The notes beneath the pieces were generated by a model. That model worked only from the letters and a program-made list of their open reading frames with translations, searched no databases and was not told the origin of the DNA. 64,000 nt of DNA from Bacillota bacterium. Lineage in GTDB: Bacteria > Bacillota > Desulfotomaculia > Desulfotomaculales > Desulforudaceae. Numbering within the stretch: position 1 is the stretch's first letter; each line of letters opens with the position of its first letter. A program made the translations under genes and the position numbers. This document shows positions 1,508-22,360 of this stretch, piece after piece. Location: the NCBI GenBank assembly GCA_040757205.1, contig JBFLXL010000004.1, positions 1-64,000 on the forward strand. Reading direction: 5' to 3'.

Positions 1508-1512
1508 CCACA

Positions 1513-1656
1513 TGTCTACGTAAAATAAAGTTGTAGACTGGCCACTCAGGAGTTACAAGGTCTCCGGTAATCCATAGTATGTTGCCTCGGAAATTAAAGT
1601 TGTATACTGGTGAGCCAGGGCACCCAAGGTTTTGTGAAAATAAAGTTGTATACTGG
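1513..1656 (+). repeat. Transposon left end with three spaced TnsB-type binding sites
   Basis: Three copies of a 20-base site (AAAATAAAGTTGTAGACTGG and close variants with TATACTGG) lie at 1522-1541, 1591-1610 and 1637-1656. The outermost copy is preceded by the terminal TGTCTACGT. Three separated sites at the end far from the tns genes is the Tn7 left-end layout. That TnsB binds them is inference from the match to the right end. Confidence 0.9.
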
Positions 1657-2037: not shown

Positions 2038-2070
2038 ACCGGTGGTACTCCCCTGTCCATAATCAACTCC

Positions 2071-4833
2071 TTATGAATGAGGCCAATATATACGGATACG
2101 TTGTTCTACCCTTTGCCGCACTGTTTGATATAAACGGATTTGAGCGTCAGAATGCTCAAGGGACACGGCAATCGCATACCTTTGATTACCGGTTTCATTG
2201 CCAGCAAATCTTGAATTACAACCAACAAGGAGGTGCCAAATAACTGAACCATTAGGATCTGGGCGATAATTGAAGGGACGCCGACTTTGACTTTTGTAAA
2301 CCGCACATTGCACCGTTGACCACTCTAATGACGTATACGGAGGTCTGGCGTTTACCACATTGGACTGTGAAATCCTGGGTTGGGTGCCCACTCCTCGGGC
2401 AAGAGACATTGCATTACGTATTTCATCCGCCGTCAGGCCACGATAGATTTGAAACCACATAGTGTTGGCCAAATAGTCCTTGCGTGTGCCACGGATAGGG
2501 GGATCATAGGCCAGCGTGACCCTCACCGACCTGCGACCGGAACGGGTAACAAACTCATCCGGAAGCTCTATCTCATAAAGGTGAAAATGATCCAGTGGAA
2601 TTTCATCCTCGGCAATAAGGGTTGTGCGTTGCTCCGTGGAAAAAGCGGCCCGGTTTATGTCCGGTTGACCAAAGCCAATGGTACGCAGTATCCGCTTCTC
2701 CGCCTCTGCCTCTGTATACCCTTCTCCCATCCATCGAGCAGCCTGCTCACTAACTCGCGCCGAATGCACCGCCAAACAGCGGATAAGATTGGCACTCGGC
2801 GGAGTCCCTCTCGGATTAGCACGTCTTAGTTCATCTGCGATAACCGCACAGCAGTGCGTGACGTGGGCCGCAGACACACTTGTGCCACAGGCGACACTCA
2901 GCAATCGCGTTCCCTGGTAGTCAAACCGGAGGGAAGGTTCGCCAAGTAAAGGATCCTGTTTTCTCCAGTTCGTCCCAGCAATCAGTGAAGAGTTTCCCCC
3001 AAAAGCGGTCAGCTCAGGCTTGATCCCTCTACTGACACCCATACCACTCTCACTGAGAGTACCGCTTCGTGTAAACGGCGACGGGCAACCGGCAGGTGAA
3101 CCGACCAGAGGAGGGCGATGTGCAGGTTTGGTAGTCGCTTGGAAAGATGTTTCCCCACGCGCCACAGAACCTACCGTCAGGGATAGTGCAGCAGTTGCCG
3201 GATCTATCAACGCATGCTCATCAGTTAAAAGTTGTTCCCGGACCGCTTCTTGGAAGCTTGCCGACGTGCTGGCTACCGGTATGGCCGGCGAACCCACGTT
3301 GCCACTTGAAACCACGATGACAATATCCAGTTCTCGGGCCAGTTCGTCCAACATTTGCGCCCAGGGCAGTTGCCGGCCACCCCGGTATTGCCTGAACTGG
3401 TGACCGAAAGAAATATTGAAAACGCGACAGGAGTATTCGCGCACAAAAGCAGTGATTGCTTCCCTAACCTGCGTCTCAACCCTCTTCTCGTCCCCAAAAC
3501 CTACCTGGTCATTTTCCAGCCGCCGCATAACCTTTGCACTGAGTAATCGGACGCGGGGCAACCACGAATTTCGGCGCAGGCAATCCACAATGTCACCATA
3601 TACGACTATTCCGGCCATATGAGTCCCGTGCCCCACCTTATCCACCGGTGTATTTTCGCCCGAATCAAAGTCACGTTCATCCACCACAACACCGGAAAGA
3701 AGAGGATGCCCAGCCACAATACCGGAATCAACCACACACGCTAAAGGCCCGTCATCCGGCAGCACCGGAACATCCGACGGAAGCTCGATAGGATCAAAAA
3801 TGCTGAATTCCGGGACAAGCCCTTGCGGTGGAAGATCTACCAATGCAACCCGATCATAGTTGAGCAACGCTTCAAGCGTCTGATTCGTTCCCTGCACCCG
3901 CGCCAACAGCAAAGTATCAGCGACCGAAGTTGGTGGATCGGTAACCCGGCCACCTGCCCTTTCAACCACTTCCCGGAATTGTCCTATAGCCCTAGCAACA
4001 AGAGCTCTTCCTGGATGCCAAAGATCAACATCAAAATAGTAAAGCCCATCGGCATCGGTAAGTTCCTGGGTTTGCAGACGAATCCCGCGTCTGTCATTTG
4101 GACCTAAACTCCTCGCTCCGATCATGGAATCGAAGAGTTCACGACGCTGGTTGGCCGTCAACCTGTCCCGTTCCAACCTTGAAGCTTGATAACTCCTTAG
4201 TTCATCTTGGAATCTACTGTTCGCTTCCCGATCTTCAAATTGCACCAATAGGTTATGTAAGGTACGAAACGACTTTTTGCTCGGTTTTTGTGATGTTATC
4301 CCATACCGCAGGTTCTGTGCCTGTTGTTCATTGGACATAAACTGAATGGCTGCATCCCGCTCTGCAAAACATACTTCCAAGCGGATTGGATCAATACTTC
4401 CGCCGGAGGCCCTTTGCCGCTCTATAGACAGAATGCCCATACTATCCTGATCGACACGTTCAACAAAGGATTCCAGATGGTCAGGCGTTTCAAAGCGGAG
4501 CAGCAGTGCATAGTACGGAGGGGATACAGATTCTTTCCGTTGTTGTTCTTCAATCAATTGAACGCCAAGTCTTTCAAGGTGTTCCCGCCCGCTGATCTCC
4601 AAAAACGCCAACTCCAGCACAAGTAGGGTGGCCGGATCCACCCCGCTGATCCGCCTTCCCGCCTCATTAGTTTGGAAAGCTTCCTGAACTTGCTGATGAA
4701 GAACACGGCCGTGTTCCGCGACGTCGCGACGCAAGGGGGGGCGCGCCATACTTGGGGGTCCGGAACGTCTAACCGCAGCATCCGGTAAACGCCGCCAACG
4801 AATGTGATGATAATGTCCATCCGGTATCGGCAA
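2071..4833 (-). CDS. ietS: Subtilisin-like S8 serine protease, IetS-like
   Basis: This is a 920-residue cytoplasmic-type subtilase with no signal peptide. The catalytic triad is complete: Asp369 in ACVVDSGI, His402 in GHGTHMAG and Ser652 in CGTSVSAAH, with oxyanion Asn512 in VVSSGN. About 350 residues precede the protease domain, and a beta-rich tail of about 200 residues follows it. It starts with TTG, preceded by GGGGGAG, three bases after the stop of the AAA ATPase gene. The pair of AAA ATPase and S8 protease matches IetAS, known for plasmid maintenance in Agrobacterium and later reported as an anti-phage module. I infer that the ATPase controls or feeds the protease during infection. The gene name rests on domain order, length and pairing. 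Confidence 0.82.
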   Translation of the reverse strand: MPIPDGHYHHIRWRRLPDAAVRRSGPPSMARPPLRRDVAEHGRVLHQQVQEAFQTNEAGRRISGVDPATLLVLELAFLEISGREHLERLGVQLIEEQQRKESVSPPYYALLLRFETPDHLESFVERVDQDSMGILSIERQRASGGSIDPIRLEVCFAERDAAIQFMSNEQQAQNLRYGITSQKPSKKSFRTLHNLLVQFEDREANSRFQDELRSYQASRLERDRLTANQRRELFDSMIGARSLGPNDRRGIRLQTQELTDADGLYYFDVDLWHPGRALVARAIGQFREVVERAGGRVTDPPTSVADTLLLARVQGTNQTLEALLNYDRVALVDLPPQGLVPEFSIFDPIELPSDVPVLPDDGPLACVVDSGIVAGHPLLSGVVVDERDFDSGENTPVDKVGHGTHMAGIVVYGDIVDCLRRNSWLPRVRLLSAKVMRRLENDQVGFGDEKRVETQVREAITAFVREYSCRVFNISFGHQFRQYRGGRQLPWAQMLDELARELDIVIVVSSGNVGSPAIPVASTSASFQEAVREQLLTDEHALIDPATAALSLTVGSVARGETSFQATTKPAHRPPLVGSPAGCPSPFTRSGTLSESGMGVSRGIKPELTAFGGNSSLIAGTNWRKQDPLLGEPSLRFDYQGTRLLSVACGTSVSAAHVTHCCAVIADELRRANPRGTPPSANLIRCLAVHSARVSEQAARWMGEGYTEAEAEKRILRTIGFGQPDINRAAFSTEQRTTLIAEDEIPLDHFHLYEIELPDEFVTRSGRRSVRVTLAYDPPIRGTRKDYLANTMWFQIYRGLTADEIRNAMSLARGVGTQPRISQSNVVNARPPYTSLEWSTVQCAVYKSQSRRPFNYRPDPNGSVIWHLLVGCNSRFAGNETGNQRYAIAVSLEHSDAQIRLYQTVRQRVEQRIRIYWPHS

Positions 4834-4836
4834 AAC

Positions 4837-5871
4837 CTACTCCCCCTTGTCCACCTTCGGTGGCCCGGATGCTCGACTCTTCAACAGAACCCGCTGTCGC
4901 CGTTCTTGCTTGGCGATCGCTCGTTCAAGGTCCTGACGGGTAAAACCGCTCACTCCTTTGAGAGCGGCATCTCTTAATACATCCATACATACTCGCTCAA
5001 TCTCGGCGTGGCTCATACCCTCCAGTTTAGACACAATTGAGCGCATCGAAAACCGGGGCTTGGGCTGAGATGCCAACTTCTTATCAAGCAAGCTTTCAAT
5101 CTCTGATAAATTGGGTTTTTCGAAACGAATGATTTCGTCAAAACGGCGCCATAATGCCGGATCCAATGATTGTTCAAAGTTGGTAGCAGCAATCAAGAGG
5201 GATCTTCCTGTAAATTGATCAAGTAGCTGCAAAAAGGAATTGACCACCCGCTTCAGCTCACCATGTTCTGTGACATCATCCCGGGACCTGCCTATCGCAT
5301 CGAACTCGTCAAAAAGAACAACCCATAATCCTCGACTGGCATAATCAAACACCTTTCTCAAGTTGGCGGCAGTTTCACCCAGCAAACTGGAAACAACGGA
5401 ATCAAACCGTACATAAAGCAATGGAAGCCCGAGTTCACCCGCCAGTGCTTCTGCAGTTGCCGTCTTTCCACAACCAGGTGGACCACAAAAGAGCACCTTA
5501 TTGCCTGGTTTGAGTCCGTTGGCTTCAAGCACTTCCCATTGTCGGAACTCATTCATAATGTCCTTCAAGATTTGGTGTTGATCCTCAGTTAAAACAAGAT
5601 CTTTAATATACCTGTCGGTCCACCTTACCTCAAGCAAGGGAAATCCGCGATCCGAATCCTTTGGTAACGGCTCGAAATTCAGGGATACATCAATCCCTAA
5701 TGGTGTCTTGCCATTTTCGAGGATACGGGTCAGCTCGTTTGCCAGAACAAGATGGGATTTTTTTCGTTCCTCTTCAATGATTTCCCTGGCGGCATCTATG
5801 AACAGCTGCCGGTCCGCGATCTTGTAGCCCCGAAAGAGTTTTTTCAGCAAATCGGCTCTAGCCATATTCAT
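4837..5871 (-). CDS. ietA: AAA+ ATPase, IetA-like, partner of the S8 protease
   Basis: This is a single-domain AAA+ ATPase of 344 residues. Walker A is GPPGCGKTA at residues 130-138, Walker B is VVLFDEFDA at about 184-192, a sensor-1 IAATN follows, and an arginine-finger-like RRFDE lies in the C-terminal third. I chose the ATG that gives MNMARADLL because GGGGAAAGGAAA lies directly before it; a longer reading frame upstream has no ribosome binding site. About 150 bases separate it from the helicase gene, so the protease pair may have its own promoter and be a separate defence module from the methyltransferase operon. It is coupled to the protease gene with a 3-base gap. Confidence 0.84.
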   Translation of the reverse strand: MNMARADLLKKLFRGYKIADRQLFIDAAREIIEEERKKSHLVLANELTRILENGKTPLGIDVSLNFEPLPKDSDRGFPLLEVRWTDRYIKDLVLTEDQHQILKDIMNEFRQWEVLEANGLKPGNKVLFCGPPGCGKTATAEALAGELGLPLLYVRFDSVVSSLLGETAANLRKVFDYASRGLWVVLFDEFDAIGRSRDDVTEHGELKRVVNSFLQLLDQFTGRSLLIAATNFEQSLDPALWRRFDEIIRFEKPNLSEIESLLDKKLASQPKPRFSMRSIVSKLEGMSHAEIERVCMDVLRDAALKGVSGFTRQDLERAIAKQERRQRVLLKSRASGPPKVDKGE

Positions 5872-6024
5872 TTTCCTTTCCCCAGAACCTGCGTGATATC
5901 TTTTGATGTAACTTACTATTCTTGCACCGCGAACGTTGAAACAGATACATCTCGCGATTCTTCTCAAGAACATTCCTACCAGGACAGTCGCCCACTTCTG
6001 TTGTTCAGCCCGATGGACTTCACT

Positions 6025-8715
6025 CTACCAGCCCTGCATCAGGTGGCGACGCCGGTCGGCGGCATCCAACACCGTGGCGCACGACTCCCAGGGAACCTTC
6101 TGGAGTTGATGATATTTCAGTTCGAAGGGGTGTTGTTGTACCACGGCGTCGATGGTCTGCCGGGCCTTTTCAATCCGGCCCAGGGCGATATTAATCCAGA
6201 CATCCTCAAGAACATCAGGGATCTGGCCGAACAGATTATAGATTTGCTCCAGCCGCTCGGAAAGCAACTCGTGTACCCGGTCCTCCACCGACCCTCTGTA
6301 GCGCATATTGTAAATGTAAACGGTGTCTCGGATCTGACCGATACGCAATATGCGACCCTTACGCTGTTCCAATCGTGTCGGGTTCCAAGGCAAGTCGAGG
6401 TTGATCAGCGTCCCCAGGCGCTGAAGATTGAGCCCCTCGCTGGCCGCGTCGGTGCCGAGAAGTAGCTTGATTTCACCATACGCCACCAGCTTTTTTAACT
6501 CATCTCGACCAACCCGGCTGAATCCCCCGCCAACCATAATCCCTGACCGTTGTGCCCCGGCATAGATGCCGATTTTTTGTTCCGGTAGTTCCCTGGAGAG
6601 GTTCTGCGCCAGCCACCAAATCGAGTCGTAGTACTGTGAGAATATGATGCAGCCCAGATCCAGCCAGCCGCGAACCAGGAGACAATCCAGAACCACGCTG
6701 TATTTCGGATCCCGTTCTCGGTTGGCCTCCAAAGCGTGTACAAGATCCTGCAGTTTACCCCGCTCGGCAGGCGTCAGGTTTTTTAATTGCGATTGGTTGC
6801 CATCATCCTCGGTATCTTCATCTTCTTCGGAAATATCCTGCCCGTCACCCAACAGTTTTTCGGCTGTGTTTTTGCCGGCGTAAATGGTACTACCAATACG
6901 CCTCAGGAGTAGGGTCTTGAGAAAACCCGCCGCCCGCATCCGGTCACTAAGCAGTTGACAGAACGCTTCCGCCAAATTGTAAGCGTCCTGAAGGTAAGGC
7001 GGGAGACCAACGGCCTCACTATCACTTTCACCAAAAAGCTCCACCTTTATCGGTTTTAAATATGGTTCGTTCGTTTCGGGATCAATGGTGTTCTCCAGAT
7101 ATCCCCTGGTACGGCGGACGATGTGCCGGATAAAAGGATTATGATTCTGCATAAAGTGTCGTGATAATCTTCTTATCCGGTCGCGTTCCGGCTCACCCAT
7201 TTCAAACCAGATATCTCCCGGTATGACCGTTTGATCGTCAGTCATTCGTAACAAGCGGCGGAGCAGTTCAAAATCTCGCCCTTCCGAGCGTGGCGGAAAA
7301 GGATTTCTGATCCACGCCCAGATTTCACGCTCACTATCATTATCCGACAACGCGCGCTTGCCCATTATCACGTCCAAAGCTTCTCCGGCGTGCCGCCAAC
7401 GGCTGAACTCACTACCCAACACTGCGTCATTCCCTTTGGCCAAAACATCAAGAAAATCCCAGGCCTCTACGGGATTGATCTGCACTGGAGTAGCCGTAGC
7501 CAGGAGCAGGCTCTTGGTCCGGGGAGCAATTTCATAGAGAAAAGCCAGCAGGTTATTGGGTTCGGGCTTCTCATCTTCCCGTCCGGAACCAAGATTCTTG
7601 CGCCGGGCGCGGTGTACCTCGTCCACAATGACACATTCATAGGATAGTTTTTTGAGGTGTTCCGTTATCTCTGATTCGCGCGTAATCAAACCCTGCGAGA
7701 CGATACCTACACGTCTGGGGCACTTCCTGATACCGTCCGGTCCCGCCGCGGGATGCTCGATACCGTTTTCATCCACCCAGTGCTTCCCGGTCCACACCGC
7801 CGAAGGCATATCCAATAGACTTCTCATTTCATCTTGCCATTGCCACAACAGCGTCTTGGGCACAAGGACCAGAATAGGTTTGTGACCGTAAAGAGCCATC
7901 AACTGCGCCGACAAGGCCAACTGTAGGGTCTTGCCCAGCCCCACCATATCGGCGAGAATCAGGCGTGCCCCGTGAGGACCGCGGTGGGCGTCAAAAGCCA
8001 TTTTGACAAAGTGTTTCTGATGCTCCCACATCCCGTACTCCCGGCGGAATACGGGAGCTTCAATCACCGTTGCGGCGGGGTCCGCCTCGGACTGCCAGTC
8101 GTCCACCTTCGGAACCACCGTCCGCCGTGCCAGACGACCGATGTCCTCTACTACAAAATCGGCCAGCGGAACCGCAAAGGGGTTATCCCAAAGGGCATCG
8201 AATTCCTCCTGCACCCACTGCACAGCCTCTGAAGAGTCGTCCTCCCAGAGAATTTCGTAGTTAAGCTTCCAGGCATCATGGGTCTCGTTGGCACTGCCAA
8301 TAAAAGCGGTTTTCCGCCCGTCGACCAAGGTGATTACCCCGGCCTTGCCATGCACAAGACCGAACCGGTCACGGGGCAACACTCTGACCCGGAGTTTGCC
8401 AGACCGCAAGAACTCGAACAAGCGCGCAAAACGAGTTTTGGCCGCCGGGCCGAGTTTCTCCGGCTCCGAACCGCACCATTCCTGGCGCATAGCGTACTGC
8501 GCCGCGCGTGCCGTTTCCACATCCCGGATATGCAAGTCAGAATTGCAGATTACCCGGACAAGGCCGCTGACTGTTTCCAGCGCCTCGCCGGAGACCTCCA
8601 GCACCGAGGAGCTGAAATAGCCCGCAATACGGTCATACGCCCTGGCTCCCGAAAGGCGCTCTTTCAGGAAAGAATGGTCCAGTTTTTCCCGGCGTGACGA
8701 AAACCGCTGAATCAA
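6025..8715 (-). CDS. PLD-like nuclease fused to SNF2-type helicase, anti-phage-associated
   Basis: This 896-residue protein begins with a phospholipase D-like domain (H122 and K124 in VHGKAG, then GSANET at 140-145) and continues into a superfamily 2 SNF2-like ATPase. The helicase shows Walker A LADMVGLGKT at 254-263, DEVH at 365-368, LLATATP, and a C-terminal motif VI QRKGRILRIGQ. One HKD copy is visible, so an active nuclease would probably need a dimer. It starts at TTG after GGAGAGGGGACA, 18 bases beyond the methyltransferase gene. PLD-helicase proteins of this type accompany DUF1156 methyltransferases and DUF499 ATPases in predicted anti-phage loci. I infer that it is the restriction effector of the module. 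Confidence 0.83.
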   Translation of the reverse strand: MIQRFSSRREKLDHSFLKERLSGARAYDRIAGYFSSSVLEVSGEALETVSGLVRVICNSDLHIRDVETARAAQYAMRQEWCGSEPEKLGPAAKTRFARLFEFLRSGKLRVRVLPRDRFGLVHGKAGVITLVDGRKTAFIGSANETHDAWKLNYEILWEDDSSEAVQWVQEEFDALWDNPFAVPLADFVVEDIGRLARRTVVPKVDDWQSEADPAATVIEAPVFRREYGMWEHQKHFVKMAFDAHRGPHGARLILADMVGLGKTLQLALSAQLMALYGHKPILVLVPKTLLWQWQDEMRSLLDMPSAVWTGKHWVDENGIEHPAAGPDGIRKCPRRVGIVSQGLITRESEITEHLKKLSYECVIVDEVHRARRKNLGSGREDEKPEPNNLLAFLYEIAPRTKSLLLATATPVQINPVEAWDFLDVLAKGNDAVLGSEFSRWRHAGEALDVIMGKRALSDNDSEREIWAWIRNPFPPRSEGRDFELLRRLLRMTDDQTVIPGDIWFEMGEPERDRIRRLSRHFMQNHNPFIRHIVRRTRGYLENTIDPETNEPYLKPIKVELFGESDSEAVGLPPYLQDAYNLAEAFCQLLSDRMRAAGFLKTLLLRRIGSTIYAGKNTAEKLLGDGQDISEEDEDTEDDGNQSQLKNLTPAERGKLQDLVHALEANRERDPKYSVVLDCLLVRGWLDLGCIIFSQYYDSIWWLAQNLSRELPEQKIGIYAGAQRSGIMVGGGFSRVGRDELKKLVAYGEIKLLLGTDAASEGLNLQRLGTLINLDLPWNPTRLEQRKGRILRIGQIRDTVYIYNMRYRGSVEDRVHELLSERLEQIYNLFGQIPDVLEDVWINIALGRIEKARQTIDAVVQQHPFELKYHQLQKVPWESCATVLDAADRRRHLMQGW

Positions 8716-8733: not shown

Positions 8734-11643
8734 TTAAACGTGGTCGTTCGCTACGGCCCCGGCCAACAGTCCGGCGGCCCTGGCGTCTTCTTTCCAGTGG
8801 GGCAGGTTGTCGTGCTCTAACCTAGCCAAATAGCGCAGGATTTGGATTAGGGTTTTCCGTCCGTCCCAGTACCGTTCTCGGAGTTCATTTCGGAACCAGT
8901 TTCGTCCGGTAACCACTTCTCCGGTACGAACCACCTCACGAATAGCAAACAGGGCGTGGCGAACCAGCGTGGCCCCGAAACCCGCCTCACCCAGATTCCG
9001 GGCGGCGAATTCGGTGGCCGTTTTTAGACGGGTCTGGTTGGCCCGGCCACTGGCCACCAACAGCCGGTATTCGCGCACCCCGAACCCCCGTGCCAACTCC
9101 TGGTAAGCACCAGCGCGGTATTCACCGCGGCTTTCTATATCCAGTCCCTTAAGGTAGAAACGTTCCTCCGGGGCAAGGGTTTTCCATAGAAAGGAATCGA
9201 AATCCCGGGGAACAAGATGGTCGCAGGCGATCTTCACGGCGTCTTCGATCATCTCTTCCAGCCGCGATTTCTCACCCCGCTGGCGTGACCGCGAGAGTTC
9301 ATAAGCCACGTCAATATCCTCAATGCTCCGATAGCGGGTCAGAACCCGAAGGGCGGCGGCGTAAGCGGCTAGTTGGTAATCGGTATCACTGAAATTCGGA
9401 TTTTCCTTGTCATCCAAGGCAAGCATGGCGTCAAGCTGCGCCTTAACCTCGCTCTCCACCTGGGGAAGGATTTCGTCACAGAAGGCCGTATCTGCCGAAT
9501 GCTGTTTACGGAGCACGAGCAAAACAGTCCCTTGGACATAGTTGCCTTCCCTTAGTGACGTATCTGTTTCGGTAACTATGCACCAGGCAGCCGTCACCCG
9601 CAACCCAGCCGCCCAGAGAATAAGCGTCAGGTCAGCCCATACGCTGGCATCCTGGTGGGTAAACATTACAATCTGTACTCCATTGTCGGGCATATGTCTA
9701 GCTAGATTTTGGTAGCAGTCCACCATGCTCTTGCGGAAATCTTCGTCAGTACCGGTAATAGCTAACACACGTTTGCTATCACTATACCAATGCGGAAATA
9801 GCTCTAGGAGTTTTTTTCTGTAGTAAGCAAGGAAGAACTCTGACAGCTCATGATAGTTAATAGCGTCAGCATAAGGGGGGTCCGTAATCCATATCTCTGT
9901 ATGTTCACCACTAGTGCGGGCGTCACTAGGAACAACCACTCCTTTTTCAAAGAGCTGGCAAGTATTTACTGAAATATTGAAATTAGCCCTAACTGCAGTT
10001 AGTCCTCTGTTTCCATAATTCATTAGGGTATTTAGGGCTTGATTTAGGAACGTTTGTTCAGTCTTTTCAGATGCCGGGGCGGGTGTCCATTTACAGAGCT
10101 TGCTATTCCAGTCTATGCACTTTCCAATACCAAGCAGTGTCATTACTTTGGATTCTAAACTATCAGCTCTTTCAGAGATTACCTCTGCAAATAATCCATT
10201 TACTAGTAACTGTCGGGGATTAAACAGCTGATGCCAGTGGGTCCAACCTCGCTCACGTATCAATCTTACCGTTTCATTACCAGGTTCAATCCGGCTGCTG
10301 GGAATATGACCCTTCTCCTGCCAGTCAGAGAAGCGTTCTCTTAACAGGGAAAGTACCAGTTCCTCCCGCCAAAGATCAGACTCATTTGGAGCCCGGTAAT
10401 GGCGAAAGGTCTCCAGGTTGCCCGCCTCATCCACAACAGTCTCCACCCAGCGAATACAGTAAAGCCGCTCCTGGAACACATCATCAGGTCGGGGAACAAG
10501 GTCTTCGTTTTCCCAAAGCCGCAAACCATAATCAGTTCCGGTGCCCTGTCGCCGGTCGCCACGGAGCATAGTGATAGGGGTGGATCGGCGGCAGTGGGGA
10601 CAAACTAAGTCTGAGTTGCGCACTGTACCCGCTTCCCGGGCTGTTCGCATTTCCTCGTCCGAAACTCCGGATTCAATAAGTATCTCAAAACGCCGGTTAG
10701 CCTCACCCGGTTGCAGGACCGCCACGCATCGGGTTTTCTCACCGATGACCCAGGACGGCGCTAACGGCACCCTCCAGCCACATTCGGGGCAAACCACCTC
10801 GTTGCAGTAAAGATAGGCATCTGCCCGCCAACCTTGCTCGTTGTGCTCAATTCCCCACTCGACGACTTGCCGGTCGACAGCTTCGTAAACTTCACGCCGT
10901 GCCCGCCGCACCTGTTCGGCCAATTCCAGACCGCCACCGACAATATTGAGCGCCGCCCAAGTGAGAAGCGCCGCCACGGGGTTCAAGTCCGATCCATAGG
11001 CTTTACAACCGATGCGCGCCGCCTCGAAAGGCACACTGCCCCCCCCGCAGAAAGCGTCCCCGACACGGGGTACGCGGCCGAATTGCCGCTCTCCCAACTG
11101 GCGGACCAGTTCCGGGATGCTCTGTGCCGCAGTTTCCAAGTGAGCGTTAATCTCCCTCCAGGCTTTTTCGGAAGGCCCTGTAATTTGCTCAGGACGGTCG
11201 CAGTACCGGAGTCTCTCGTCATAGGAAAGGCGCTCAAACACCAAACGTTGCAGGTCTTGGCGATCCTCCGCAGTCGTTCCGCGCTTCAACCGCGGTCTGG
11301 CTTCCGATGTCCCTGGAGTAAACCAGCGTTGGCGTTCCCGGGGAGTGAAGCGTTGATAGACCTCCTTCAGGGGAATAGCTCTAGTTTTCCGGCGCCAAAG
11401 GCCTTCGTCATCCATGGTCAGGATCTTCAGAAAAATCTCCCGGTCCCGGGTCGGATCAGCAGAGGCGGGCATTAACAGGCCGATAATCGCCGCCCGCACC
11501 AAGATCAGCGGCTTGCGCCCCCACCACTTGCCCAGCCCGGTCAGGGTCTGGCTGTAATTCGCCTTGCGCTCTTTATAGCTTTCCTTGGAAAGCTTGGACA
11601 CCGGAAATTGTGTTTCGATGAACGACCGGAACGCTTTGTTCAT
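8734..11643 (-). CDS. DUF1156 adenine-specific DNA methyltransferase with zinc ribbon
   Basis: This is a 969-residue DNA methyltransferase. The DUF1156 N-terminus (KWWGRKPLILVRAAIIG, residues 39-55) is followed by SAM-binding motif I DAFCGGGSVPFEA (196-208), two CxxC pairs for a zinc ribbon (C285/C288 and C348/C351) and the catalytic DPPY at 588-591. It probably methylates adenine or cytosine N4 in host DNA so that the linked nuclease can tell self from phage DNA. Its start overlaps the stop of the DUF3780 gene by 4 bases. The long region after DPPY (about 380 residues) could include target recognition; no separate specificity subunit is seen in the island. The methylated sequence cannot be predicted from the protein alone. 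Confidence 0.86.
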   Translation of the reverse strand: MNKAFRSFIETQFPVSKLSKESYKERKANYSQTLTGLGKWWGRKPLILVRAAIIGLLMPASADPTRDREIFLKILTMDDEGLWRRKTRAIPLKEVYQRFTPRERQRWFTPGTSEARPRLKRGTTAEDRQDLQRLVFERLSYDERLRYCDRPEQITGPSEKAWREINAHLETAAQSIPELVRQLGERQFGRVPRVGDAFCGGGSVPFEAARIGCKAYGSDLNPVAALLTWAALNIVGGGLELAEQVRRARREVYEAVDRQVVEWGIEHNEQGWRADAYLYCNEVVCPECGWRVPLAPSWVIGEKTRCVAVLQPGEANRRFEILIESGVSDEEMRTAREAGTVRNSDLVCPHCRRSTPITMLRGDRRQGTGTDYGLRLWENEDLVPRPDDVFQERLYCIRWVETVVDEAGNLETFRHYRAPNESDLWREELVLSLLRERFSDWQEKGHIPSSRIEPGNETVRLIRERGWTHWHQLFNPRQLLVNGLFAEVISERADSLESKVMTLLGIGKCIDWNSKLCKWTPAPASEKTEQTFLNQALNTLMNYGNRGLTAVRANFNISVNTCQLFEKGVVVPSDARTSGEHTEIWITDPPYADAINYHELSEFFLAYYRKKLLELFPHWYSDSKRVLAITGTDEDFRKSMVDCYQNLARHMPDNGVQIVMFTHQDASVWADLTLILWAAGLRVTAAWCIVTETDTSLREGNYVQGTVLLVLRKQHSADTAFCDEILPQVESEVKAQLDAMLALDDKENPNFSDTDYQLAAYAAALRVLTRYRSIEDIDVAYELSRSRQRGEKSRLEEMIEDAVKIACDHLVPRDFDSFLWKTLAPEERFYLKGLDIESRGEYRAGAYQELARGFGVREYRLLVASGRANQTRLKTATEFAARNLGEAGFGATLVRHALFAIREVVRTGEVVTGRNWFRNELRERYWDGRKTLIQILRYLARLEHDNLPHWKEDARAAGLLAGAVANDHV

Positions 11644-12278
11644 TGTTCACCCCCCGCTTTAGGCACTTTGCAGACCTTGTAGCTGCTCCAGGGAAGCCCG
11701 TCTTCCATAAGCAGCGAAAAGAGGTCCTGGCGCACCTCGGTCTGGTAATCCGTTACCGGATTCTCAGTGAGGGCAAAGCGAACCGCTTTGCGCCAACCTC
11801 GGTTACGCCCGGTGACAGCGTGACCGGTGGCGGCGTTGGTCATAGTAAAGAGCCACCAGCGTTCTTCCGGGGTCAACCCAAGCCAGTTTTTGACGGCCAC
11901 CGGGATCAGGGCCGGGTCGGCGTCCTCGACCGCCCAAGCCAAGAGCACCAATTCCTTCCCTAGAAGCCGCGACACGGGAATCTGGCCGGCTTTCCAACGT
12001 CCGGTTTTCAGCCCGTTCTTCTTCAGCCGCCGGTTGAACTCTTCCTGCACCGGCTCGGCCAAGGCATCCCACTTGCTACGGGGAAGGATTACCCGCATTT
12101 TGTCGTCCCCGTTACCCAGTGCCAGACTCAACTTGCGACGTTCTTCACTTTCGTCCCAGGTGAATTGCTCGCTGATGTAAACATAATCCTTCTTGGAAGC
12201 GGGAATAGTGACCAGGAAATGATGCACCGCCTCGGACGGCACAAAACCGAATCCTTCTGCCTTGCGTCCGTTCGCCAT
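11640..12278 (-). CDS. DUF3780 family protein, anti-phage-associated
   Basis: This 212-residue protein matches what I recall of DUF3780, a family found almost only beside DUF1156 methyltransferases and DUF499 ATPases. Characteristic stretches are EGFGFVPSEAVHHFLVTIP near the N-terminus, RVILPRSKWDALA in the middle and LLVLAWAVEDAD-like KELVLLAWAVEDAD further on. No catalytic motif, signal peptide or membrane helix is visible. It is translationally coupled on both sides: it shares one base with the DUF499 stop and overlaps the methyltransferase start by 4 bases. I infer a structural or adaptor role in a complex with those two proteins. Confidence 0.75.
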   Translation of the reverse strand: MANGRKAEGFGFVPSEAVHHFLVTIPASKKDYVYISEQFTWDESEERRKLSLALGNGDDKMRVILPRSKWDALAEPVQEEFNRRLKKNGLKTGRWKAGQIPVSRLLGKELVLLAWAVEDADPALIPVAVKNWLGLTPEERWWLFTMTNAATGHAVTGRNRGWRKAVRFALTENPVTDYQTEVRQDLFSLLMEDGLPWSSYKVCKVPKAGGEQ

Positions 12279-15200
12279 TACTGTTCAACCTCTCCCGCCT
12301 GGATCTCCGTCTTCACCTCGGCCACCCAATCGAGGAGGTTCTGACCGGTAGGGAAACGGATGAACATGGCTTCAATATTCACCTGACCTTCGTCAAGCAG
12401 GCCGCGCAGGTGCTCAACGGCGGCTTCCACCTTATCGCCGGTTAATTCCAGCTTGTGATCAAAAGTCAGTTCCACCCAACTCTGACCGCTAACCAAAATT
12501 CTCGGTCCGGGAACCACTCCCTTGTGCTTCTTAAGTCGAGCCAGAAATTCATATGCTTCTTTAGTGGTCATGAGCAAGTGCTCGCGTTTCCAAGTAGCCG
12601 GGAGAGTTGGATCAAGCATAGTGCCGGTGTTTTTCCATTCGATATTCAACCGATGAACATCGGACACTACGCTATCTTTTTCGGCCACCGCCAGCACTAC
12701 AATTGTACCCTTGGGAACCACAAAGGGACCATCATAAACACCCCCGGCAGACCGGGGATCGGAACCGTCGGTGGTATAGCGCACCGGCGCCGGCGGTGCG
12801 GACTTCAACTCAACCATTTTATCCGGCCCGTTTTGAAAGGTGCGGGATTTGATGGTGATCCGGTTGGACCAGAATACGGGATCACCCGTCTCGTGCACGC
12901 CCTTTGTGTCCATACAAAGGAAAGAGAGCTGGAGTTCGCTGGTTTTAAAACTGTTGGGGTCCGGCACTTTCAGGGAACCGATGGTGGCCGGCCCGTTCAC
13001 TTCGTAGAAAATCGCATCACCGTGAACGGGATTGAGCTTGAGGAGGACCTCGCCGGTATCCTCGTTACGGCCTTTTTCCTGGATCTGAACACCGGTCCTG
13101 GGCGGCGGGAACGGCCCCTTTTCCACATAGGCACCGTTTTCACGCCACTGGTCCTTATGCACCAAGTCGTTCTTCAGGTGGTCGAGAGCGTCCGGGCGGT
13201 GCCACTGCCAGGCAGTATTGACGGCCGCCCGCTTCTTGATTTCCGACCAGGGCATTACCTTCTGGGTGAATAGCCGTGCCTCACACTTCTTCCGGAAGGT
13301 GTCACTGGCGATATCCTCGGTGAACTTCTGCTTGACCTTGAGGGTCTCGCGCACCTGCTGTTCGCCGCGGTATTGGTTATTGGTGAAGTTCATGTAGAAG
13401 TCAGCGTTCATCAGTTGATCGCCGTGCGGGTAGGTCAGACTGGTAAACGTCTCCCGCGCGGCACTCAGGAGCCGCAGCTTGATCTTATCGTCCAGCTCCA
13501 GCGCCGCCACGCGCTGCGGGTCGTTATCAGCCACTTTTTCGTTGTCCATTTCCTCAAGGATGTGGCCGATGGCCTTGGACTCTTTGGCCACTTCCAGCAG
13601 AGACTCCAGGGTGTCCCGTTGGCCGGAAAGGAACATGATCCGGTTCTTGTAATCCAGTTCGTGGAAGAATTTCTGCAGGTCGGGATGCAATCCGCCGGAA
13701 TAGGGTTCGTAGAGCACCAAGGCAACTTTGTCGGCGCTGAGTTTGATTTCATCCAAGGCCCGAAGCGCCTGGACATCCTGATAACAATCTTTTTGCGTCG
13801 GTGCAAAGATCCTCTCCAAGAAGACACGCAGTTCTTTCAAGGAGGATTCGCGGTTGTACGAATCGGCCGTCGTCTTAAGTTTGGCCACCAGATTCTGGAC
13901 GTTCTTGAAGAAAAGCTTTCCCTCGCGGCTGGAATGCAGGTACCAGGCCTTAGTCGAGAGGAGGCTGAGAATTTCTTTGAGCTTGGTGATATCCCGACCC
14001 GGAGCGCACAGGTAAGCCACGATTTCCGAGAGAGAAAGCCCGAGCACTGCGTTGGGCACATTGGCTAGAGAGGAGACAAGCAAGAGTTTGCAGGCGTCCC
14101 GCGCATCGGAACCACTCAGGTTGGCGTCGATGTTTTCGGCCACAGCTTGACCGCTGGAGGCAATGTCGTGGCTGATAGCATTATCAAGCGTGGGATTGAT
14201 GGACGTGATTTCAGCCAGGGTGTCACGATCATTCAGGTCGAGATCGTGGGCGTGGATAAGTGCCAGTTGATCCGCACGGGCATCCGGTTCGGTAAAGAGG
14301 CTTGAAACAACCACACGCATCAGACGAATGAGGCCGCGAGTCTGCTGAAAACCGGGGTTTTCCCGGAAGCGCGCGTAGAGATCCCTAATCGCCGGATGGA
14401 AGGGATACGATTCCCTGATGAGCTGCACAAATTTCTCCGGAGAAACATTGGTGATATCCATTTGCCTGGCATCGCGGACGGCCTGGGCGTACGCGCGGGC
14501 CACCTCCACGATTTCCGCTTCTTCAGACAGGCTTTCAAAGAGCCGTTTCCGCAAAATATGATAAACCTCATCGGTATTCAACCCCACCGGTTCCAGATTA
14601 AGCGCCACCCGGCCGACCTCATTCTCAAGGTTCTGCAACACTCGGGCAATTTGCTCAGTACCAGCTCCGTATACCGCCCTTAGATCCGAAAGCACGACAC
14701 AAACGTTTGCCAGCTCATCCTTGCCCACCGCTACAAATAGATTGGCCAGAGCAGTAGTGGTAACCACAGCAAGGTCGGAATTGCCAACCGGTTTTGACTT
14801 GGCGTTTTCCAGATAAGGCGGAAGTTCATCAAGCAGGATCAGCAGGGGCTCTCCTTTCAGGAGATTGACCCAAGCCGTTTGACCCGGAGCCGAGAGAGGA
14901 GCGTAATAACTGTTGAACAACTCTTTCTTGCCCAATTGTTCGGCGATGGCGCCCCAGATTCCGAACGGAACGTCGCTTTCCCGCCCGGTAAAAGACACGA
15001 CCCGGACCTCACCGAGGTTCTGGGACTGATAAAGACTGCCCATGACCTTCGGACGCAGTTCCGGATGCTTAGCCAGAAGACCCAGGGCAATCATGTTGTG
15101 CGTCTTGCCGCCGCCCATCGCCTGAGTGAGTTTAATAACCCCGGAAGCCGAATGTCCTTCGAAACGCCGGAAGGCTTCCCGAAACAGACGCTTCATGCCG

Positions 15201-15346
15201 TCCGTCGGGTAGTTCTCCTCAAAAAAACTGTGGGCTTCGATACGGTTCTCGACCAGATCGGTCAGGTCCAGTACCACGTCACGCCTGGCGCGATCAAAAA
15301 CGCTATCGCGGGGCTTGCAAAGCTGCTTAAGGGTCTTCAAGCCCAA
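12278..15346 (-). CDS. DUF499 large ATPase, anti-phage-associated
   Basis: This 1022-residue protein is the first gene of the cargo operon. Walker A is QAMGGGKTH at residues 75-83 and Walker B is LLILLDELPPY at about 168-178, typical of DUF499 AAA-type ATPases. The family is distantly similar in size and layout to BrxC/PglY of BREX/Pgl systems, but that comparison is inference. The C-terminal third includes a beta-sandwich-like stretch (PPAPVRYTTDGSDP) often seen in chitobiase-type domains. The start is TTG, preceded by GAGAGGGAG. A 177-base gap separates it from tnsD, so it should have its own promoter. Confidence 0.82.
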   Translation of the reverse strand: MGLKTLKQLCKPRDSVFDRARRDVVLDLTDLVENRIEAHSFFEENYPTDGMKRLFREAFRRFEGHSASGVIKLTQAMGGGKTHNMIALGLLAKHPELRPKVMGSLYQSQNLGEVRVVSFTGRESDVPFGIWGAIAEQLGKKELFNSYYAPLSAPGQTAWVNLLKGEPLLILLDELPPYLENAKSKPVGNSDLAVVTTTALANLFVAVGKDELANVCVVLSDLRAVYGAGTEQIARVLQNLENEVGRVALNLEPVGLNTDEVYHILRKRLFESLSEEAEIVEVARAYAQAVRDARQMDITNVSPEKFVQLIRESYPFHPAIRDLYARFRENPGFQQTRGLIRLMRVVVSSLFTEPDARADQLALIHAHDLDLNDRDTLAEITSINPTLDNAISHDIASSGQAVAENIDANLSGSDARDACKLLLVSSLANVPNAVLGLSLSEIVAYLCAPGRDITKLKEILSLLSTKAWYLHSSREGKLFFKNVQNLVAKLKTTADSYNRESSLKELRVFLERIFAPTQKDCYQDVQALRALDEIKLSADKVALVLYEPYSGGLHPDLQKFFHELDYKNRIMFLSGQRDTLESLLEVAKESKAIGHILEEMDNEKVADNDPQRVAALELDDKIKLRLLSAARETFTSLTYPHGDQLMNADFYMNFTNNQYRGEQQVRETLKVKQKFTEDIASDTFRKKCEARLFTQKVMPWSEIKKRAAVNTAWQWHRPDALDHLKNDLVHKDQWRENGAYVEKGPFPPPRTGVQIQEKGRNEDTGEVLLKLNPVHGDAIFYEVNGPATIGSLKVPDPNSFKTSELQLSFLCMDTKGVHETGDPVFWSNRITIKSRTFQNGPDKMVELKSAPPAPVRYTTDGSDPRSAGGVYDGPFVVPKGTIVVLAVAEKDSVVSDVHRLNIEWKNTGTMLDPTLPATWKREHLLMTTKEAYEFLARLKKHKGVVPGPRILVSGQSWVELTFDHKLELTGDKVEAAVEHLRGLLDEGQVNIEAMFIRFPTGQNLLDWVAEVKTEIQAGEVEQ

Positions 15347-15523: not shown

Positions 15524-17404
15524 TCAGTACTCCTTGCCCACCTCGGCATAGATTTCTTCCGCCACCCGGAGGGAATATCCCGGGCGGAGGCCCGCTTCGC
15601 GGACGATCTTCCAGGGACGCACCAATTCACCGCGGTCCCGTAATTGCGCTGCGGCACACCTTATCCGGCGGATTTGGAAATCTTCTTCTGTTTCGATAAG
15701 GTGGTCAAGAACAGCCCTCGTTTTCGGAAGCTTCGACAGATGCCTTTGCAGCAAGGCCAACTTCCCTGTTTTCTTCCCAATGGCACTGACCGTCAGGCGC
15801 GTTGGCTTACCCGATTGTTGTTTCATTTCCGCCGCGGCCCTGGTCACCAGTGCGGCCAGTTCCGTATCGCGTTTTTGCCAGTCTACGCGCCGATCATCAC
15901 CCTTTTTCGGTGCCGGTGCCGGTGAGTACTCGTCCAGCCAAAGCCGGTCATAGCGGTAAAGCCAGGCATAGTCCGCCGGGGCAATACGCCTTAGTTCGGT
16001 CTTCGTCTTCTCTGGGAATTTCTCCATTAGTGCCAGCCAGCAGGTCCGGTAATCATTTATTTCGCCCATCCGGGCACCGGGAACTGGATTTTGATCCGGC
16101 CGGCTTTTGCCGTTACCTATCAGCCGTTGCAGGTGTCTTTTTACGGTAAGCGGGTCAACATTGAGCTTGCGCGCTACGGCCTTTGGTTTTTGCTTCCCGG
16201 TTACCGCCAGACGGATGAGTTCCTCCTCCCAGACCGGACCGAAGGACTTGATGCGCCCGATATGATAGCAGTCGTTTTCGGACCGGTCCGGCCCCCGACG
16301 TGCGTAGGTGAAACCGCATGCACAGGTGAAGGTTCCGACCGGCAGTCCTGTTTTATAGTCCCACGTAACGGTACACCTCCTGACCACCGCCCGCCGGTAG
16401 TGTGGGGCGGCGGCATTCAGGCAGGGCCAGGGCCCGCGGCCAAAGGGGCGTTGTTGCTCCTTCTTTCCCATCAGGAATTCTTCCGGTGTCAAGCCCAGAA
16501 ATCTGATGAACAAGAGGTGTCGGACGGGGTGTGTGGTGGTGCGCGGCTCGCGCAACAACTTGTTTAACCAGTTCTCATTTTGGCTATAATCAATGGCACT
16601 ATCCATCTCGGCCAGGAAATCCGGACCGTAGAAGCTGTGAAAAGCTTCCATCAACTCCCGCTGCCTGATCCGGCCCGTATAGGTGGCCAGATTCTTCTTC
16701 TGCAGGTGACAGATGTACCGTTCACGCAGTTCGGCCAGCCCGTGCACCGGTACCTCGTGATTGAGCAGCCAGTGCACAGACCCGGCCAGGGCAAGATAAT
16801 GTGCGGCATTAACTCCGATAACGGCCTCGGCCGACTCCCTGGCCGGATCACTGTCCAAAGGATGAAAGGCGTGCTTGTTCGGCTGGCAAGAGACCGCCAC
16901 ATTGCTGTCGCCCAACCAGACGCGGTGCACTGGGCAGACCCGGGCCCCAAAAACCTGGTGGGTTCGGTGCCAGTATGGTTCCCCGTACCGTTCAGTATCC
17001 GCCCGGAGACATGCGGGACAATAGCGGAGAAACCTTGGCGAAGTGAGGCTGCTGGCCATGATGCCGATGGTGATGTGGATTTTCCCGCCCTCCGTGCCGT
17101 CCTTCATTAATTGCCTGATCCGGGCGGCCCGTTTCTGCGGCAGGAAAGGACGGTACAGTGGAAACAGCGTATGTTTTTCAATGATGCGATCCGGCGTATT
17201 CAACGAGCCGGGTGGAAGCCGGTCATAGAGCGCCTGCAGCCGGTTGGGCAGATCGGCGATGGCGCAAGCCGTCCGGGAACCGAAAAGATCATGCACGGTG
17301 TCTTTGTAACCCGCATTCCGGCTCCACACGTGGTAACGGGCCAAAGCACTGTAAAGAAGCTCATCCGGATAAAGGGCCGGGAAAAAAGGCAGCATCAAAC
17401 TCAC
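15524..17404 (-). CDS. tnsD: TnsD/TniQ-family target-site selector
   Basis: This 626-residue protein recognises the attTn7 site in the end of glmS and recruits TnsC. The TniQ zinc motif is RYCPACLRAD...CPVH with C129, C132, C157 and H160, as in TnsD and TniQ. The N-terminal segment LPDELLYSALARYH-like (LYPDELLYSALARYH) is the usual TniQ opening. The C-terminal two-thirds contains helix-turn-helix stretches (PKAVARKLNVDPLTVKRHL) that fit site-specific DNA binding. It begins 4 bases after tnsC. Its length fits the glmS-targeting TnsD group better than the short TniQ of CRISPR-associated transposons, and the element indeed sits at glmS. Confidence 0.9.
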   Translation of the reverse strand: MSLMLPFFPALYPDELLYSALARYHVWSRNAGYKDTVHDLFGSRTACAIADLPNRLQALYDRLPPGSLNTPDRIIEKHTLFPLYRPFLPQKRAARIRQLMKDGTEGGKIHITIGIMASSLTSPRFLRYCPACLRADTERYGEPYWHRTHQVFGARVCPVHRVWLGDSNVAVSCQPNKHAFHPLDSDPARESAEAVIGVNAAHYLALAGSVHWLLNHEVPVHGLAELRERYICHLQKKNLATYTGRIRQRELMEAFHSFYGPDFLAEMDSAIDYSQNENWLNKLLREPRTTTHPVRHLLFIRFLGLTPEEFLMGKKEQQRPFGRGPWPCLNAAAPHYRRAVVRRCTVTWDYKTGLPVGTFTCACGFTYARRGPDRSENDCYHIGRIKSFGPVWEEELIRLAVTGKQKPKAVARKLNVDPLTVKRHLQRLIGNGKSRPDQNPVPGARMGEINDYRTCWLALMEKFPEKTKTELRRIAPADYAWLYRYDRLWLDEYSPAPAPKKGDDRRVDWQKRDTELAALVTRAAAEMKQQSGKPTRLTVSAIGKKTGKLALLQRHLSKLPKTRAVLDHLIETEEDFQIRRIRCAAAQLRDRGELVRPWKIVREAGLRPGYSLRVAEEIYAEVGKEY

Positions 17405-17408: not shown

Positions 17409-19118
17409 CTAAACAGCCAGGAATTCGTCCACCGGTTTGATTACGCCCGCTTCCTTCAAGGCTTCATAAGCGGGAAAGCCTTTCTTTTTCCCTTGCGCGG
17501 CAATTTCCCTCAGATCGCCGGAAAGGGAAGCCGTGGGCGGTTTCCGCTTGCGGCCGCTTCCGGACGGTGCCTTCGCCCAGGGGTGGTCATCCTTTTTCTC
17601 AGCGGACTTGTTCGTGGCCAGCAAAAAGGCTTCTTGCATGGCCGACTTTAAATCCCTTGCGCTTCCGTGGCGGTCCAGGGCTTGTACGGCACACGCGCGG
17701 GCAATGCGGGGTGCAAAACCAGCCTCCACCAACCAATTGGCAATCCGGACCGGATTTGAATCGGGACCGTCACCGGCAGCGTTTTGCTCAGCCTTTCTTT
17801 GGTTGCGCAAGGTATTCAGCGTTCCCTCAATAGTCACCCGTTGATTCGCTTGTTGAAAGTATTCGTCCAGGTTCGCAATCGGAGGGTGAATATCCATGAT
17901 GGTGCTGAGTTTCTGATAATCCTTCCGCCGTAGCGCTTCGAGAATCGTCTTAACCGACTGCAGGCACTCGGCGGCGGCCTTTCGAATCGACCCCGGAGTG
18001 ATGGTTTCGTCTTCGCCTCCGATTACGCTCCACTGGGTGATCATATACAGCTTAACGGCAATGTCCACGATTCCCTGCGATTCGTCATATAAAGCCTGGC
18101 TGAGCGCCGACGTGAGCGGTGTGGGAATATTGGTCCACTGGTAATCCCATAAACCATCGATGAAGAAATCCCAGATTTCATCCTTGGCAAAATGAGACCA
18201 GATCAGATCTCCCTGTCCGGAGCCTCTACGGGCTGAGGCAAACTCCCGGGTAACCAGCGGGAGCGCCTTGAATGTGCCCACAAGTACCACCGGAACTCCG
18301 ATGGTATTGGCCAACTGCACGAAAAAGTTCAGCATCTTGGCGGCGCCGCCGCTTTTCGCCTCACTCAGCCGCTGAATCTCATCAACCACAAGTACGCCCA
18401 GGCCTAAAACGGCCGCCAAGTAGGCCATGTTCGGTATCAGTTCGTCCACCGTCCGGCGGCTGTTGCCAAACTTCTGGTAATAGCGCGTTTCGAGAATCTG
18501 GTCGATGGCCTGGAAGAAATTCAGGCAAAGTCCCTTCAGCGAACCGTCGTACGGGCATTCCAACTTGAGCCAGACCAACTGCGCACGGTCGAAGCTGTGT
18601 CCGTTGTACTCGGTATGGACAATTACCTGGGGATAAAGAGACAGTACGCTTTCCACCGCCGTGGACTTGCCCACCCCGCTGGTCCCAATGATGTGGAAGC
18701 CGGCCGCCGTGGAACGGATGACCGGCGTGTAGTTATCATCCGCCGGACCCCAGTCAATGCCGGGAAACCCCGCTCTGATCTGTTTCTTCCACTCCGCCGA
18801 AATCGGGTTGCGCGCCAAATAACCATTGCGGATCATCCGGGAAAAACGGCGTTCCAACTCCGTGTGAATGGGTAAGGGTTCCATATAATTGGCAATCGAC
18901 TGCACCGCCTGGAGGCGGGCTTCAGCCGGCCACCGGCGTTCAGCTTCATCATACTTGGGTCTGCGGCGCATACGTCTGGCCGCGGTATCGGACGTATAAA
19001 CCGGTGGCAGGGCCTCGATGAATGGGTTATGCTGATAGACCGCCTCCATGCTTGGACCGTAATTCGCGGGAATCCGGTTGCCGACAAAAATGTGGCCCCC
19101 GCACAGCCTTTCGACCAT
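17409..19118 (-). CDS. tnsC: TnsC transposition regulator ATPase
   Basis: This 569-residue AAA+ ATPase links the target selector to the transposase and gives target immunity. Walker A is GTSGVGKST at residues 145-153 and Walker B is GVLVVDEIQR at 241-250, with VPVVLVGTF as a sensor-1-like strand. It shares one base with the end of tnsB. The C-terminal extension after about residue 400 is charged and probably contacts TnsA/TnsB, as known for Tn7. No frameshift or missing motif is seen, so the machinery looks intact. Confidence 0.92.
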   Translation of the reverse strand: MVERLCGGHIFVGNRIPANYGPSMEAVYQHNPFIEALPPVYTSDTAARRMRRRPKYDEAERRWPAEARLQAVQSIANYMEPLPIHTELERRFSRMIRNGYLARNPISAEWKKQIRAGFPGIDWGPADDNYTPVIRSTAAGFHIIGTSGVGKSTAVESVLSLYPQVIVHTEYNGHSFDRAQLVWLKLECPYDGSLKGLCLNFFQAIDQILETRYYQKFGNSRRTVDELIPNMAYLAAVLGLGVLVVDEIQRLSEAKSGGAAKMLNFFVQLANTIGVPVVLVGTFKALPLVTREFASARRGSGQGDLIWSHFAKDEIWDFFIDGLWDYQWTNIPTPLTSALSQALYDESQGIVDIAVKLYMITQWSVIGGEDETITPGSIRKAAAECLQSVKTILEALRRKDYQKLSTIMDIHPPIANLDEYFQQANQRVTIEGTLNTLRNQRKAEQNAAGDGPDSNPVRIANWLVEAGFAPRIARACAVQALDRHGSARDLKSAMQEAFLLATNKSAEKKDDHPWAKAPSGSGRKRKPPTASLSGDLREIAAQGKKKGFPAYEALKEAGVIKPVDEFLAV

Positions 19119-21325: not shown

Positions 21326-22158
21326 GCGGAATCACCTGCCTGATTAATCTTCATGTAGGATCGAGTGACGGCCAAAGGTTTGCCCGTATCTATGACCGTG
21401 TTCATGTCCACCAGCCAGTACCGGTTGGCGATCAGGTGTCTTACCACCCACAAGCTGCTTCCCGGTTCCAAGCCCAACTGCTCGTCCACCGCCAGAGCCG
21501 CGTGGGCCAAGGGGTTCCTCCTTCGCTCCATCTGTTTGGAAAGCCCGTGTTCAATCTGACCGAGGATATGCGGACTGATGTCCGGTGCACTGGACAAGTC
21601 CCTGGCCTTATGGACCCACCGTACATTGGCGGCCAATGGCTCCGGGATCTCGTTTTCGGTAACAATCCCCCAATCCATCCCTTGCTCCTGCCACCAGGTT
21701 CGCTCGATTTCCAGCTTTTCCAGCGCCCGCCTGGAATTCAGATCCTTGGCCATCTTGACGGTGCGCGCCCTTAACTCGGTTCCACCCGCCGTACAAACAT
21801 CGATCACAAAGTCCGTCGTCATCACGGCCGCCTCTTTGGTCTTGGGATCTGTGGGATGCTTGATCTGCAAACGCCCGGCAATCTCCAGGGTTTGGTCAAG
21901 CGGCAAAGGATATTGCTCCCGGATATCCGTAACGGCCGGAGACCATTCCAGGGTGTAGAAATATTTCAGCTCCAATTGAGACAAAAAATGATGTACCCTC
22001 CCGGTCTTCCAGCCCAATTCACGGGTGGAGAGACCTCGGGAGGATACATCCCGGATAGTCAGCCAGGGAAGGTATCCGCTACCGTGGCCTTGACCGCGGC
22101 CCTCCCTGGTCATCCTTTCAATCTTAGCCGGTGTGGTGGTTCGCTTTCGTTTGGCCAT
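21322..22158 (-). CDS. tnsA: TnsA endonuclease (5'-strand cleavage)
   Basis: This 278-residue restriction-endonuclease-fold protein cuts the 5' strands at the transposon ends, giving cut-and-paste movement. The catalytic set E63 (SQLELKY), D116 (TTDFVID) and K135 (RTVKMAK) lies at nearly the same positions as E63, D114 and K132 in Tn7 TnsA. DIREQYPLPL follows as in the family. The C-terminal half holds the winged-helix-type TnsA domain. It is the first gene of the tns operon and lies just inside the right end, with its promoter touching the innermost TnsB site. Confidence 0.93.
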   Translation of the reverse strand: MAKRKRTTTPAKIERMTREGRGQGHGSGYLPWLTIRDVSSRGLSTRELGWKTGRVHHFLSQLELKYFYTLEWSPAVTDIREQYPLPLDQTLEIAGRLQIKHPTDPKTKEAAVMTTDFVIDVCTAGGTELRARTVKMAKDLNSRRALEKLEIERTWWQEQGMDWGIVTENEIPEPLAANVRWVHKARDLSSAPDISPHILGQIEHGLSKQMERRRNPLAHAALAVDEQLGLEPGSSLWVVRHLIANRYWLVDMNTVIDTGKPLAVTRSYMKINQAGDSA

Positions 22159-22189: not shown

Positions 22190-22218
22190 ATTATACACCA
22201 CCATGTCCGGCTAGTCTA
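22190..22218 (-). promoter_or_regulatory. tnsA promoter overlapping the innermost TnsB-type site
   Basis: A perfect -10 (TATAAT, 22190-22195) is spaced 17 bases from TAGACT (22213-22218), a 4 of 6 match to -35. The -35 is the first six bases of the innermost right-end TnsB site. Binding of TnsB there would block the promoter, a self-limiting arrangement like that described for Tn7. Confidence 0.7.
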
Positions 22219-22301
22219 CAACTTTATTTTCATAGTCTACGACTTTATTACGTAGTCTACAACTTTATTTTCACAGTCTACAACTTTATTTTACATAGAC
22301 A
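22213..22301 (-). repeat. Transposon right end with four tandem TnsB-type binding sites
   Basis: Four copies of AGTCTACAACTTTATTTT (one variant AGTCTACGACTTTATTA) begin at 22213, 22234, 22254 and 22275, a 20-21 base period. They are followed by the terminal ACATAGACA. Four abutting sites beside the tns genes is the Tn7 right-end layout. The last bases form the inverted repeat with the left end. Confidence 0.92.
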
Positions 22302-22360
22302 CCAGGTGTACACCCTTGCCTACTGCTACTCCACCGTCACGCTCTTGGCCAGGTTGCGTG
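22302..22360 (-). other. attTn7 site: glmS 3' end and insertion point
   Basis: The glmS stop codon is at 22326-22328 and the transposon begins 24 bases beyond it. The end of glmS encodes the highly conserved KPRNLAKSVTVE, whose DNA is the known TnsD recognition sequence in Tn7 systems. The flank just outside the element is CCAGG. Confidence 0.85.

Follow-up and report, generated by a model that had tools for sequence, protein, structure and literature searches.

Near the start of the window, by which we mean the whole 64,000-nucleotide stretch of DNA analysed, genes for an AAA+ ATPase and a subtilisin-like protease lie beside an operon that includes a methyltransferase gene. The first-pass annotation had left two explanations for this arrangement: an independent defence module stacked with the operon in one element, or the proteolytic output of the operon's own system. 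Which of these does the locus favour, and does such a pair occur next to such operons more often than expected?

The ATPase–protease pair and its neighbours

PADLOC profiles identified the pair as IetAS (IetA, PDLC02196, 2.7e-91; IetS, PDLC02198, 2.1e-107), in agreement with the first-pass annotation, and scores of this order exclude chance ORFs. The IetS-type S8 gene directly follows the IetA-type AAA+ gene after a gap of 3 bp (Table 1). IetS is a protein of 920 aa with a TTG start, and its S8 domain (Pfam Peptidase_S8, 5e-27) begins at about residue 361. The complete triad reported earlier proved to be exactly placed, at D369 (VVDSGI), H402 (GHGTHM) and S652 (GTSVSAAH); N512 is the expected oxyanion Asn, and all four residues are invariant in two IetS alignments, of 12 and 15 proteins. 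No signal peptide was apparent by eye at the N-terminus, and from its sequence IetS is probably cytoplasmic. For IetA the longest reading spans 4837–5973; we prefer the ATG at 5871, giving 344 aa, because GGGGAAAGG precedes it and homologues begin there. IetA carries Walker A (GPPGCGKT), Walker B (FDEFD), a sensor motif (AATN) and WRRF, and its AAA+ motifs are invariant among relatives. The pair therefore has its triad, its Walker A and B motifs and its arginine residues intact.

Both proteins score far below the NCBIfam equivalog cut-offs (IteS, NF042956, 72.5 bits against 900; IteA, NF042959, 240.7 bits against 510) while matching the PADLOC profiles, and we therefore regard the pair as a divergent IetAS member and not as an equivalog. 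IetS also contains an N-terminal insert of about 90 aa, at around residues 95–190, that is common only to L057 and L202 among the aligned relatives. Internal triplication as the source of this insert was rejected, the alignment scores being no higher than those of shuffled sequences (z below 1). The closest relative of the window pair is the one at L057 (genome G050, 8900–10519), with IetA 66% and IetS 54% identical; it lies 46 bp behind a Type I restriction–modification (RM) operon, and its IetS ORF ends at 539 aa and so looks truncated.

The neighbouring operon (6025–15346) codes for the helicase, DUF1156 methyltransferase, DUF3780 protein and DUF499 ATPase, in an order that is kept in homologous loci. 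A DUF499 ATPase, a DUF1156 methyltransferase, an HKD–SNF2 helicase and a standalone DUF3780 within one operon make this a Type-2 BREX-related (BR) system. The interval between the helicase gene and ietA, put earlier at about 150 bases, measures 153 bp, and ietA is on the same strand as the BR operon. Neither a terminator-like site nor a consensus promoter was called in this gap, where the scans were at chance level and RNA folding gave a z of 0.41. Given the common strand, the short gap and the absence of such calls, the pair may be co-transcribed with the BR operon.

Table 1. Features of the Tn7-like element and its attachment site, in window coordinates.
Feature	Position	Strand	Evidence
Left end: TGTCTACGTAAAATAAAG terminus, three TnsB-site-like repeats (1521–1541, 1590–1610, 1636–1656)	1513..1656	+	repeats, sequence
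ietS, S8 (subtilisin) protease	2071..4833	-	PADLOC, Pfam, triad, alignments
ietA, AAA+ ATPase	4837..5871	-	PADLOC, motifs, AF2, Foldseek
HKD/PLD nuclease–SNF2 helicase	6025..8715	-	PADLOC PLD_Helicase 4e-246; NCBIfam NF042964 1302.9 bits (cut-off 1100)
DUF1156 adenine methyltransferase	8734..11643	-	PADLOC DUF1156_MTase 1.5e-293; NCBIfam NF042963 1415 bits (cut-off 1000)
DUF3780 protein, Type-2 BR marker	11640..12278	-	Pfam PF12635 6e-54; PADLOC DUF3780
DUF499 ATPase, Fn3-like domains near C-terminus	12278..15346	-	PADLOC DUF499 1.4e-207; Pfam DUF499, Fn3_assoc, CHB_HEX_C_1
TnsD/TniQ target selector	15524..17404	-	Pfam TnsD 2.9e-106, TniQ 9.9e-25
TnsC-type AAA ATPase	17409..19118	-	Pfam TniB/AAA_22
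TnsB transposase	19118..21325	-	Pfam Mu-transpos_C; PADLOC TnsB 1e-08
TnsA endonuclease	21322..22158	-	Pfam Tn7 TnsA N- and C-terminal domains
Right end: four tandem TnsB-site-like repeats (22212–22293), terminus TGTCTATGTAAAATAAAG (reverse strand)	22212..22301	-	repeats, sequence
glmS, attachment-site host gene outside element	22326..24155	-	NCBIfam TIGR01135 819 bits

A Tn7-like carrier next to glmS

Both systems lie within a Tn7-like transposon of 20,789 bp (1513–22301) that has TnsA, TnsB, TnsC and TnsD/TniQ genes and two inverted ends with several TnsB sites. The terminal inverted repeat TGTCTAYGTAAAATAAAGTTGTAGACTG delimits the element, and 24 bp separate its right end, at attTn7, from the stop codon of glmS. 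The BR operon and IetAS are its only recognised cargo. This defines a compact 20.8-kb element with two defence systems as recognised cargo, and the pair adjoins the methylation operon because both are carried by this one transposon after glmS.

No perfect 5-bp target-site duplication was found, the flanks reading CCACA and CCAGG. Possibly the left flank changed later, which would account for the imperfect duplication; as the two 5-mers differ, a single insertion is unproven by this sign. The DNA to the left of the element, as far as the contig start (33–1431), contains a DruA-like ORF and a HEPN/MntA-type nucleotidyltransferase toxin–antitoxin pair (771–1431).

The glmS orthologues of the same genus and the same family are 80–94% identical. 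Unlike the window genome, a genome of the same genus (G301) gave no match to TnsD, DUF3780 or IetS in the phylum searches, and when used as an empty site for comparison its sequence diverges directly past the stop codon of glmS. About 0.2 kb beyond glmS, in the same attachment region, this genome has the start of a gene for an HmaC-like DUF499 ATPase (L109, G301 389001–409000, at 1302–4169), and no Tns genes were found at that locus.

Test for linkage between IetAS and DUF499-centred systems

We then considered the linkage from the BR side. In a phylum sample of 399 genomes, 19 besides the window genome had DUF3780 matches, one of them weak. IetAS was present in none of the 18 phylum DUF3780 regions read besides the window, in none of seven plasmid BR loci, and at one of 23 DUF3780 loci on viral contigs. 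Among helicase-bearing Type-2 BR loci outside the window, IetAS lies downstream at one of 40, and the sequence of 37 of these loci extends 2.4 kb or more past the helicase; IetAS is not a conserved component of Type-2 BR. The viral locus (L289, IMGVR_UViG_3300042451_002160, 4392–18095) has the order DUF499–DUF3780–methyltransferase–helicase, followed by a 159-aa gene, IetA and IetS, all on the same strand, and its IetAS belongs to a different clade from that of the window.

From the IetAS side, 27 phylum loci, the window included, were counted at a threshold of at least 70 bits, with OLD-like TOPRIM (76 loci, at whole-genome search positions) as the control defence gene. Within 10 kb, a distance tallied by hand from printed positions and with contig ends depressing both counts, DUF499 (PF04465) was found at 2/27 IetAS loci (1/26 without the window) and 6/76 control loci (Fisher p = 1.0), and N6_Mtase at 4/27 and 11/76 (p = 1.0). 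Preferential linkage of IetAS with BR is thus rejected against this control, as is preferential linkage with RM, which several adjacent loci had suggested. To the question posed by the first-pass annotation, whether IetAS is linked to DUF1156/DUF499 operons above expectation, the controlled answer is that its proximity to them is what ordinary clustering of defence genes gives.

Nearly every locus examined, whether in phylum genomes, on plasmids or on viral contigs, has IetA and IetS side by side. A BR system is usually absent from these loci, and at some of them IetAS is found directly behind Type I RM genes (L057, L069), BrxL (L062), a DISARM DrmD/DrmMI pair (L127) or Hhe (L125). A single-sequence scan of genome contigs gave no match. 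At L220 (IMGVR_UViG_3300048587_000669, 8143–21338), IetA–IetS precedes a DUF499/HmaB-like/PLD-helicase system by 0.1 kb, and in that system a 175-aa gene between the ATPase and the methyltransferase matches no PADLOC family; HmaC-type ATPases are near IetAS at L064 and L113. In Nostoc sp. LEGE 12450 (L114, 5097–12346), IetAS lies directly behind a V-K-type TnsB (PADLOC 1e-219) and two genes of about the size of TnsC and TniQ, as if it were cargo of a CRISPR-associated transposon; of these three genes, TnsB was the one tested.

The pairing is rare and equal in frequency to that of the control defence gene, which makes these look like two separate systems travelling together. With a probability of roughly 0.8, we conclude that the window carries a predicted IetAS anti-phage module and a separate, RM-like Type-2 BR operon, co-carried by one glmS-linked Tn7-like transposon. 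Because linkage is at control level, the first of the two explanations offered earlier, that of an independent module within a shared element, is favoured; linkage lends no support to the second, a proteolytic output of the BR system, and the reading of IetAS and BR as a single system is unsupported.

It is unlikely that the DUF499/DUF1156 system uses IetAS as a proteolytic effector arm, with the BR complex detecting foreign DNA and IetAS stepping in when the nuclease fails. The common strand and 153-bp gap in the window would suit such an arm, as would the gene order of the viral locus with its distant IetAS, and the positions of IetAS near HmaB- and HmaC-type systems at L220, L064 and L113. 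Accessories recruited as back-up effectors at BREX and BR loci have also been described, although PMC12839542, in the text consulted, names only nucleases. Against this, there is no excess over the control defence gene, 39 of the 40 other helicase-bearing Type-2 BR loci show no IetAS in the flank covered, and IetAS resides for the most part away from BR, behind defence genes of several other kinds. At four Type-2 BR loci of one genus (L080, L082, L083 and L085, in G180, G324, G345 and G302), an OLD-like TOPRIM gene is within 10 kb of DUF499, which fits the published back-up effector idea.

A related proposal is that IetAS is a mobile proteolytic accessory, repeatedly recruited by DUF499-centred systems and acting when the nuclease–helicase is blocked. 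It can cite about five separate adjacencies, in two of which the pair follows a Type-2 BR operon in the same downstream position. On a 72-row IetA tree, the window, L289, L113, L064 and the identical L218/L220 are separate, with five label changes, so that IetAS with a DUF499 neighbour arose about five times, in both gene orders: IetAS is upstream of the DUF499 system in L220 and downstream elsewhere. Such scattered placement and mixed order are as expected from module shuffling, and they count against a dedicated effector arm; we consider repeated recruitment quite improbable.

Still less probable is a role outside defence, be it ordinary regulated proteolysis or upkeep of the element, such as control of transposition. 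AAA ATPase and protease pairs serve housekeeping proteolysis too, and IetAS occurs in Tn7-like elements at L055 and L068 as well as beside the V-K-type TnsB of L114. However, the PADLOC and NCBIfam family names reflect anti-phage activity, and plasmids and Pf prophages (PMC11878078) carry IetAS as well, as do defence islands that lack Tns genes. That the cargo is decaying and the pair non-functional is also very unlikely: the contig does begin 1.5 kb past the left end, by a truncated DruA-like ORF, and a target-site duplication is not seen, but all ten element genes are open, those checked have complete motifs and keep the invariant residues, and both ends are intact.

Proposed mechanism and relation to known systems

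The AF2 model of IetA (pLDDT 86) has an AAA+ core, and Foldseek, together with a profile search, placed it nearest to the PAN/26S Rpt, FtsH and p97 ATPases, which points to an ATPase of the protein-remodelling type. The catalytic domain of IetS was modelled poorly (mean pLDDT 67.5), and for this reason Foldseek returned only weak matches to PCSK9 and mycosin (TM 0.13–0.25 by query length). Subtilisin propeptides offer a general comparison for the N-terminal region of IetS; Pfam names no propeptide there and, with the catalytic domain so modelled, the propeptide-like reading is topological only.

On the preferred reading of two co-carried systems, IetA would recognise an infection-related protein or state and would spend ATP either on remodelling a substrate or on freeing IetS. 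IetS may then act in the cytoplasm as a protease that depends on ATP, is restrained by a prodomain and, upon infection, cleaves a protein of the host or the phage; the BR methyltransferase operon would independently sense unmodified DNA. We infer the oligomer, trigger, substrate, activation step and outcome of this scheme, and likewise that the two systems work independently in the cell. The literature searched offered no mechanism for IetAS, and both PMC9958689 and PMC11878078 call it unknown.

The window pair shares its gene pairing and defence context with IetAS as defined by PADLOC (IetA/IetS) and NCBIfam ('IteA/IteS antiphage'); it differs from the reference pair in its distance by NCBIfam bits and in the insert of IetS. 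The BR operon has the same four genes in the same order as the Type-2 BR described in PMC12839542, with Fn3-like DUF499 domains and an HKD helicase replacing TUDOR, and its genes bear the NCBIfam labels 'anti-phage-associated DUF499/DUF3780/DUF1156/phospholipase D-like'. It differs from that description in riding on a Tn7-like element with IetAS alongside; the text of that paper uses none of the terms IetA, subtilisin or S8 protease, and its passages on proteases or peptidases are without such a pair. A term search of the main text of PMC8649781 found neither IetAS nor Type-2 BR as cargo. With the Tn7 and Tn7-like elements carrying defence cargo (Benler et al., 2021; PMC8649781), the window element shares TnsABCD, three left and four right TnsB-site-like repeats, TGT/ACA ends and insertion just downstream of glmS, and it differs from them in its cargo and in showing no perfect 5-bp duplication. 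IetAS, Type-2 BR and the Tn7-like carrier are all of already-known kinds, and the window adds a member.
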